DNA from: Lysobacterales bacterium
GTDB taxonomy: Bacteria > Pseudomonadota > Gammaproteobacteria > Xanthomonadales > SZUA-36
Reading direction: 5' to 3'
NCBI GenBank assembly: GCA_028289465.1
Contig: JANQPM010000117.1
Coordinates: 1 to 36,074 of the forward strand
DNA length: 36,074 bases
How positions within the stretch are numbered: position 1 is the first letter of the stretch; each line of letters begins with the position of its first letter. Position numbers and translations under genes: made by a program. Below the pieces are notes generated by a model. The model did no database searches, was not told where the DNA came from, and saw only the letters and a list, made by a program, of their open reading frames with translations. Below, in pieces: positions 17,277 to 17,859 of the stretch.

Positions 17277-17305
17277 TTGTTGCGGCAATTAGAATTCACT
17301 ACAAT
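17277..17305 (+). promoter_or_regulatory. Sigma70-type promoter of tRNA-Lys
   Basis: TTGTTG (17277-17282), a 17-bp spacer, and TACAAT (17300-17305), followed by a GC-rich stretch 15 bp before the mature tRNA. Spacing is ideal and position is right for a stable RNA promoter. Confidence 0.7.
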
Positions 17306-17320
17306 GTGCGGCTTCCTGGC

Positions 17321-17396
17321 GGGCCGTTAGCTCAGTTGGTAGAGCAGTGGACTTTTAATCCATTGGTCGTAGGTTCGAATCCTACACGGCCCACCA
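17321..17396 (+). tRNA. tRNA-Lys, anticodon TTT
   Basis: 76-nt cloverleaf with encoded CCA. The acceptor stem GGGCCGT pairs with ACGGCCC. The D arm is GCTCAGTTGGTAGAGC, the anticodon loop is CTTTTAA with anticodon TTT, and the T arm loop is TTCGAAT closed by GTAGG/CCTAC. tRNA-Lys at this position after queC matches the Pseudomonas gene order. Confidence 0.97.
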
Positions 17397-17425
17397 TTTT
17401 TAGGGGATGTACCCCTAAAAATGGT
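17393..17425 (+). terminator. Perfect 14-bp hairpin overlapping the tRNA CCA end
   Basis: ACCATTTTTAGGGG (17393-17406), loop ATGTA, then the exact complement at 17412-17425. It begins inside the CCA end. There is no T-run directly after, so it may be a processing or 3'-protection structure; the likelier stop signal is the T6 run at 17506-17511. Confidence 0.5.
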
Positions 17426-17556
17426 AGTCCCTGCAGGGTTCGCTACTCCTGGGGTTTTCGAGTGGTTTGAGGTTTGACACTGCCTCGCAGGGGGCGCTCT
17501 CAGTCTTTTTTATTTCTGCTCCGCGCGACGCGATTCGAATCCTACACGGCCCACCA

Positions 17557-17586
17557 ATTTTTCGGGGGTTCCACCCCCCAAAAAAT
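17557..17586 (+). other. Second-unit hairpin after the duplicated tRNA end
   Basis: ATTTTTCGGGGG pairs with the C6-A6-T tract at 17574-17586 with one mismatch around a TTCCA loop. It has the same position as the first-unit hairpin but a different sequence, so pairing is kept while bases changed. Confidence 0.6.
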
Positions 17587-17700
17587 CAGTGAGCCGTGCA
17601 GCATCCACCACTCTTGGGTTTTCTGACGATTTGAGGTTTGACACTACCTCGCAGGGGACGCTCTCAGTCTTTCTTACTCTCGTTCAGCGCGATGTGACGC

Positions 17701-17859
17701 GAATGGTGTGTGATCCACTCATTTTCTGGTGCTTGTCCCCAAATGTTTCTCAAGCCCTGTAGAATTCGCGGCCATGGATATGGTTTGCGTGGTTTTGATC
17801 GAGTATTGCCGGTCGGCGGTATGTAGCCCTTATCATTGGTGTACGGCGAAGGGCGCGTA
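17701..17859. other. Remaining gap before hrpA
   Basis: The tRNA-hrpA gap is 463 bp in total. The repeats described above occupy its first 300 bases. The last 160 bases hold a TAGAAT -10-like hexamer at about 17760 that could drive hrpA, without a good -35 at standard spacing. I see no gene in it. Confidence 0.35.

Follow-up and report, generated by a model that had tools for sequence, protein, structure and literature searches.

Repeats behind a tRNA-Lys gene of a Lysobacterales bacterium as possible minimal integrative elements of stable-RNA genes

The tyrT/rttR repeats of Escherichia coli have stood as an isolated curiosity since 1991. The RttR RNA annotated in E. coli K-12 (171 nt) stops precisely with the CCA of the second tRNA-end copy, and in the consensus of the Rfam family RtT (RF00391) a 5' segment, GGGaaGGAU, pairs with the AUCCuuCcC of the terminal tRNA-end copy. 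Northern blots have shown RNAs of this family in Actinobacillus pleuropneumoniae (PMC4986893). Genomic islands and CIMEs residing in tRNA and tmRNA genes offer another term of comparison (PMC4383910, PMC5704250), where a regenerated target gene, accompanied by a displaced fragment of it, is an accepted hallmark of integration into tDNA (PMC4383910). A literature search returned no paper on the general layout described here, in which direct and inverted copies of a tRNA end stand behind tRNA genes.

The window analysed is a stretch of 36,074 nucleotides from a Lysobacterales bacterium (assembly GCA_028289465.1, contig JANQPM010000117.1, positions 1 to 36,074). Its single tRNA gene, found by both ARAGORN and Rfam, is a tRNA-Lys(TTT) gene with a sulfotransferase-like gene upstream and an hrpA-type helicase gene downstream (Table 1). 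The original prediction, that the last 23 nt of this tRNA (T54 to A76) are repeated exactly 160 bp downstream and that the flanks after both copies align over more than 100 bp, holds on both points: TTCGAATCCTACACGGCCCACCA is present in the window only at the two tabulated sites, with a start-to-start distance of 160 bp and no match in 100 shuffles with three mismatches allowed, and the 122 nt from 17449 align with those from 17613 at 73%. The copies open two units, 17374-17533 and 17534 to about 17700, which can be aligned over their whole length (about 73-75% where ungapped); since they differ by about a quarter, they are not a duplication introduced during assembly. What follows the second unit is at most a decayed third tRNA end (ACGCGAATGG). 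An inverted repeat (17376-17406 and 17412-17442, 84%) turns the tRNA-Lys end, hairpin A and the next 20 nt or so into a single long imperfect palindrome. Because no T-run follows its stem, hairpin A of unit 1 is not an intrinsic terminator. In hairpin C of the same unit, GCCTCGC (17482-17488) pairs with GCGACGC (17525-17531) with one C.C mismatch. No tRNA-end copy was found at the tRNA-Lys gene before hrpA in two distant genomes (L106, L146).

Table 1. Positions of the tRNA-Lys gene and of the parts of the two units in the window
Feature	Position	Strand	Basis
tRNA-Lys(TTT) gene, CCA encoded, putative insertion target	17321..17396	+	ARAGORN; Rfam RF00005, 79.8 bits
Copy 1 of the tRNA-Lys 3' end (T54 to A76), part of the working tRNA	17374..17396	+	exact 23-nt repeat
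Unit 1 hairpin A, TTTTTAGGGG-ATGTA-CCCCTAAAAA, no T-run 3' of the stem	17397..17421	+	
Unit 1 B, imperfect reverse complement of the tRNA-Lys 3' end (TGGTAGTCCCTGCAGGGTTCGCTAC)	17422..17446	+	complementarity score; inverted repeat
Unit 1 right end, common to eight other sites of the genome	17467..17533	+	
Copy 2 of the tRNA-Lys 3' end, start of unit 2	17534..17556	+	exact repeat
Unit 2 hairpin A, shape as in unit 1, sequence differs	17557..17586	+	
Unit 2 B (CAGTGAGCCGTGCAGCATCCACCACT), resembles the reverse complement of the tRNA-Lys end	17587..17612	+	read from the sequence, no separate score
Unit 2 right end, core ACCTCGC ... GCGCGATGTG	17631..17698	+	match to model R1, 59.8 bits

The parallel with tyrT that had been proposed for this locus stands as far as anatomy is concerned. 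As in the E. coli tyrT/tyrV repeats, a unit placed after a tRNA closes with an exact, CCA-bearing repeat of that tRNA's 3' end; inside the unit are an imperfect complement of this end and intervening hairpins, and the spacing is 160 bp as against 178 or 175 bp. By its complementarity, B is able to pair with the terminal copy in a closing stem, as in RtT, and the fold predicted for the window unit has this stem; the E. coli units are likewise complementary to their own tRNA (p 0.002 and 0.05). The parallel fails at the level of sequence. The window units, unlike the E. coli ones, have no sequence or covariance match to RtT, neither at the gathering threshold (45 bits for this family) anywhere in the window nor at E<=10 over 17300-17800, whereas the E. 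coli controls matched at 137.5 and 132.9 bits, and their copy starts at T54 instead of about A58. Their hairpin A is joined directly to B and they occur at many RNA genes within a single genome, which also sets them apart from E. coli. The window unit is thus not a member of the Rfam RtT family, and by analogy it may work like the tyrT repeats or descend from the same process. Any other known Rfam RNA was ruled out as well, as the search returned the tRNA alone.

All units follow one plan, in which the tRNA 3' end (T54 to A76) is succeeded by hairpin A, B, a spacer, hairpin C and a GG, after which the next tRNA 3' end begins; without the tRNA end they measure 137-150 bp. Hairpin A stands directly after the CCA in nearly all units and differs in sequence among them, with a stem score of 10.4 compared to 4.7 in shuffles. 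B, which starts where hairpin A ends, is an imperfect reverse complement of the tRNA end of the same unit: the score is 18.9 with its own tRNA, 13.8 with other tRNAs and 12.4 in shuffles, and it fits its own tRNA end better than the others in 18 of 20 units, which are mutually related and therefore not independent in such counts. The same two bases opposite the T-loop are missing in several units of different tRNAs. A further complement of the T-arm in the right half of the unit was ruled out, since scoring the middle and right parts for complementarity to the tRNA end gave no signal. Hairpin C comprises 7-11 pairs with a loop of 28-36 nt and ends 0-3 nt upstream of the T54 of the next copy; its stem scores 7.9, compared to 5.2 for shuffles and 5.1 when the arms are swapped between units, and in the window's genome it pairs GCCTCGC with either GCGACGC or GCGAGGC.

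When the window's genome (2.95 Mb in 121 contigs) was searched at the DNA level, matches to the right part of the unit turned up on other contigs, in every case downstream of a stable-RNA gene. Model R1, a 76-column sequence model of the unit core or right end (about 70 bp), has exactly nine sites in this genome at E below 1e-14: two at tRNA-Lys, one at tRNA-Met on contig C87, two at tmRNA, three at tRNA-Val and one at tRNA-Met on contig C8. The units after the Lys, Met (C87), Val and tmRNA genes bear the 3' end of their own RNA gene, so that the last three kinds are not mere copies of a unit with a tRNA-Lys end; at the tRNA-Met gene on C8 the second tRNA end is decayed. An insert of about 1.2 kb separates left part from core in the third tRNA-Val unit and has a 210-aa ORF matching DUF4760, the single case of a cargo-bearing unit. 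The R1 core was absent from 397 other genomes of the order, and a search for the unit core in phages, plasmids, E. coli, IMG/VR and GTDB contigs gave only tRNA ends in phages and otherwise nothing. Because related units stand after four or more further tRNA or tmRNA genes in this genome and after many tRNA genes of its relatives, the tRNA-Lys units probably represent a small element able to insert into tRNA genes without disrupting them, and not a local accident.

The same genome has arrays of tRNA 3' ends of another kind, repeated every 170 bp or so at a tRNA-Phe gene (L022, G000:C80) and every 205 bp or so at a tRNA-Thr(TGT) gene (L020, G000:C74), with spacers unrelated to the tRNA-Lys unit; a long reverse complement of the tRNA end lies inside the tRNA-Phe unit. 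A CRISPR-like array with the repeat GCTTAACAAATCGGAAAGCGCGTAGTAACTACAAC (L004 1-480, G000:C7) is found less than 2 kb from the unit-bearing tmRNA gene.

The family to which this genome belongs is uncultivated and stands near Lysobacterales, with members such as JABDLD01 (SS_bin_66), JAOUCS01 and JAHEFS01. We screened 39 family genomes, all of them single assemblies and many from metagenomes, for two tRNA 3' ends 111-171 bp apart; loci were checked by ARAGORN and a copy finder, and tandem tRNA genes were excluded from the count of units. The same layout occurs after six tRNA species in at least eight relatives: tRNA-Lys (G001, and G013 with at least three units), tRNA-Leu(TAA) (G001), tRNA-Val(CAC) (G012, G020), tRNA-Met (G001, G006, G012, G016, G020, G098), tRNA-Cys (G016) and tRNA-Phe (G016, G022). 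There are from one to at least three units per locus, and with few exceptions copy 2 matches at all 23 nt. A class-wide scan for the pattern in 369 genomes gave a match in 47, and 28 of the 30 loci fetched had no such array; another, L306, consists of repeated tRNA-Asp genes. Among these 30 loci, arrays resembling rtT outside the family were found only in L298 (family f143; G753:C2, 147841), after tRNA-Pro(TGG) and tRNA-Arg(TCT) and with a clear B, the inverted copy in the tRNA-Arg unit being nearly full-length. Two further arrangements differ from the units. The initiator tRNA-Met gene of G007:C2 (L186) has a 150-bp tandem duplication in which the match includes the tRNA end and reaches further into the T-stem; it is probably an ordinary duplication. 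In G023:C10 (72250-73718; L261/L266) a second tRNA-Met 3' end follows the first at a distance of 1.44 kb and matches the tRNA over a greater length, which may represent a classical small island.

One tRNA-Met locus, recognisable across the family by 1.1-1.5 kb of syntenic upstream DNA, allows orthologous sites to be compared. It is filled, with both copies, in G006, G016, G001, G020 and G098, and the left end of a unit is seen in G013 and G009; it is empty in G150 and G212, of the genus of G006 and G016, and in G010, G019, G056 and G180, of the genus of G098. Since G006 is nearer to the empty G150 (79.5%) than to the filled G016 (76.0%), the unit has probably been gained or lost more than once. 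A terminator of the native type follows the second copy in G006 and G020. At the tRNA-Met gene of G009:C25 (L265), hairpin A is followed by an assembly gap and then by a terminator of this type, probably a unit collapsed during assembly. Between genera, the tRNA-Met units share 55-72% identity and yet copy 2 is unchanged, so that the copy is either constrained or homogenised through recombination between copies.

The two ends of the units follow different rules of similarity. Left ends group according to the RNA gene (0.63 between units of the same gene in different genomes, 0.51 within the same genome and 0.48 otherwise; permutation p<0.001), and right ends cluster by genome (0.65 within the same genome, 0.55 for the same gene and 0.49 otherwise; permutation p<0.001). 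With the window's genome removed, the left-end result strengthens (0.70), the 'same genome' signal of the right end drops to p=0.18 and the spacer retains p=0.035. These figures suggest modular ends, the left adapted to each tRNA and the right recognised by a lineage-specific factor.

The anatomy of the units is that of an insertion into the T-loop with the tRNA restored, and we consider that there is about an even chance that they are very small integrative elements specialised on stable-RNA genes. Under this explanation, the element would enter at the start of the T-loop, between G53 and T54, and would supply a replacement tRNA 3' end; with the replacement brought in, an intact tRNA would remain on the left, while the original end (T54 to A76), now displaced, would form copy 2 on the right. 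The left-hand part (tRNA end, hairpin A and B) would be matched to a particular tRNA, and the right end (spacer, hairpin C and GG/TTC), common within a genome, would probably be recognised by the mobilising enzyme; we infer that insertion is enzymatic and site-specific, with hairpin C as its recognition site. Direct observations behind this explanation are the anatomy itself, the tRNA-matched left end, the genome- and family-wide spread, the filled and empty orthologous sites and the one cargo unit, and the nine copies of the right end, all downstream of tRNA-Lys, two tRNA-Met, tRNA-Val and tmRNA genes, argue for integration. The 55-72% figure at tRNA-Met speaks against it, as such divergence looks like long vertical inheritance and not recent mobility. 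So do the negative outcome of the search for a mover among the tyrosine recombinases, the restriction of cargo to one unit and the weaker right-end signal once the window's genome is removed. Further insertion, or recombination between the 23-bp copies, may add or remove units, and the latter process could also keep the copies identical.

As the units encode no integrase, the element would be either moved in trans or an inactive remnant. Among the PF00589 proteins of the window's genome, whose assembly is 95% complete, the tyrosine recombinases are only XerC, XerD and one integron-type integrase, and no mover was found among them. The integron-type integrase (L077/L288, G000:C112, about 85715-86670) scores above the TIGR02249 cut-off and has one open frame, with a C-terminus that lacks the usual segment with the catalytic Tyr. 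Its relatives in G007, G017, G023 and G208 score similarly, and most end near profile position 289. An integron integrase over the cut-off, which an array of integron cassettes would call for, is absent in six of the nine array genomes (G001, G006, G013, G016, G020 and G022). The integron integrase was rejected as the mover: the genome's own copy lacks the catalytic Tyr region, and its presence among relatives does not track the units. The neighbour of xerD is a lysine- and alanine-rich, repetitive ORF of the histone H1-like type (L075 2538-3422, G000:C115).

The alternative that the repeat is simply a tract of unequal crossing-over, where the tRNA 3' end was duplicated by chance and the duplicate then multiplied, without function, through slippage or unequal exchange, agrees with a unit number that varies from one to at least three, with copies that remain identical as under concerted evolution, and with the ordinary, longer duplication at the initiator tRNA of G007. 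It does not account for a right end common to five stable-RNA genes, for boundaries at T54 and A76 that are constant across many tRNAs and genera, for the conserved shape of B and of hairpins A and C, or for orthologous sites that are empty in some relatives. As a sole explanation it is already contradicted by the homologous units at other RNA genes, and we regard it as improbable. Still less probable, in our opinion, is a cis-acting control where B would act as a competitor of the T-arm and acceptor strand while the tRNA is being made and so modulate its maturation or transcription. B is indeed matched to its own tRNA and placed directly after hairpin A, but the tRNA-Lys fold is unchanged in the predicted fold of tRNA plus unit, B is often mismatched at ACCA, and the presence of the unit is polymorphic among close relatives.

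A more serious rival, though one we hold to be rather unlikely, is that the unit is kept as a co-transcript cut at the tRNA 3' end to give a stable small RNA of the RtT type, with B paired to the terminal copy and a regulatory or decoy role like the one proposed for rtT of E. coli. The CCA end of RttR at copy 2, the pairing of B with copy 2 in the Rfam family and in the fold predicted for the window unit, and the layouts resembling rtT at tRNA-Pro and tRNA-Arg in another family all point this way, and there is no intrinsic terminator between tRNA-Lys and the repeats, so that read-through is possible. In several relatives (L199, L200, L202), however, hairpin A is a strong terminator right after the tRNA and the rest of the unit would therefore hardly be transcribed, and the window units lack an Rfam match. 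The sense strand of hairpin C tolerates G.T and not A.C, 20 to 1, these G.T pairs being partly inherited and not independent, whereas in B the A.C mismatches exceed G.T, 24 to 4 in all, opposite to what selection for RNA pairing would leave. Hairpin C favours the sense strand and B the opposite, in units that are related to one another; folding energy was rejected as evidence for an RNA, since the units fold no better than shuffled sequence. If an integrative element of the kind preferred here is transcribed, it could also yield an RNA like RtT with a tRNA-type CCA end, as a by-product or a second function. Should the units be RNAs, tRNA transcription units in numerous bacteria would yield a second product with a tRNA-like end.

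Compared to genomic islands and CIMEs in tRNA and tmRNA genes, the units likewise leave an intact, restored target gene on the left and a displaced 3' fragment on the right, grow by tandem accretion and, at the tRNA-Met locus, present filled and empty orthologous sites; they differ in their size of 137-150 bp instead of kilobases, in having no integrase, in the palindromic left end and in a single right end that serves several different RNA genes. With integron gene cassettes (attC) they share predicted hairpin ends, a G/TT junction, the organisation in arrays and one gene-bearing unit, but they are anchored at tRNA genes and the integron integrase is not associated with them. Like REP and MITE-like mini-elements they are short, palindromic, non-coding and repeated in the genome; unlike them, they occur only after stable-RNA genes, in one orientation and with a copy of the tRNA end. 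Should the units prove mobile, they would rank with the smallest known elements that enter essential RNA genes harmlessly, and the origin of rtT would become a testable question. A broader proposal, which we put forward as possible with the balance against it, is that minimal mobile elements of about 140 bp form a previously unrecognised class in the T-loop of gammaproteobacterial tRNA and tmRNA genes, with a left end rebuilt for each tRNA and a right-end hairpin read by a host- or element-borne enzyme, and with the E. coli tyrT/rttR repeats as their best-known fossil. The present survey makes those repeats part of a more widespread arrangement, where the tRNA end is present both as a direct copy and as an imperfect inverted one and which is seen after tRNA-Lys, Leu, Val, Met, Cys, Phe, Pro and Arg and after tmRNA genes in several gammaproteobacterial lineages.
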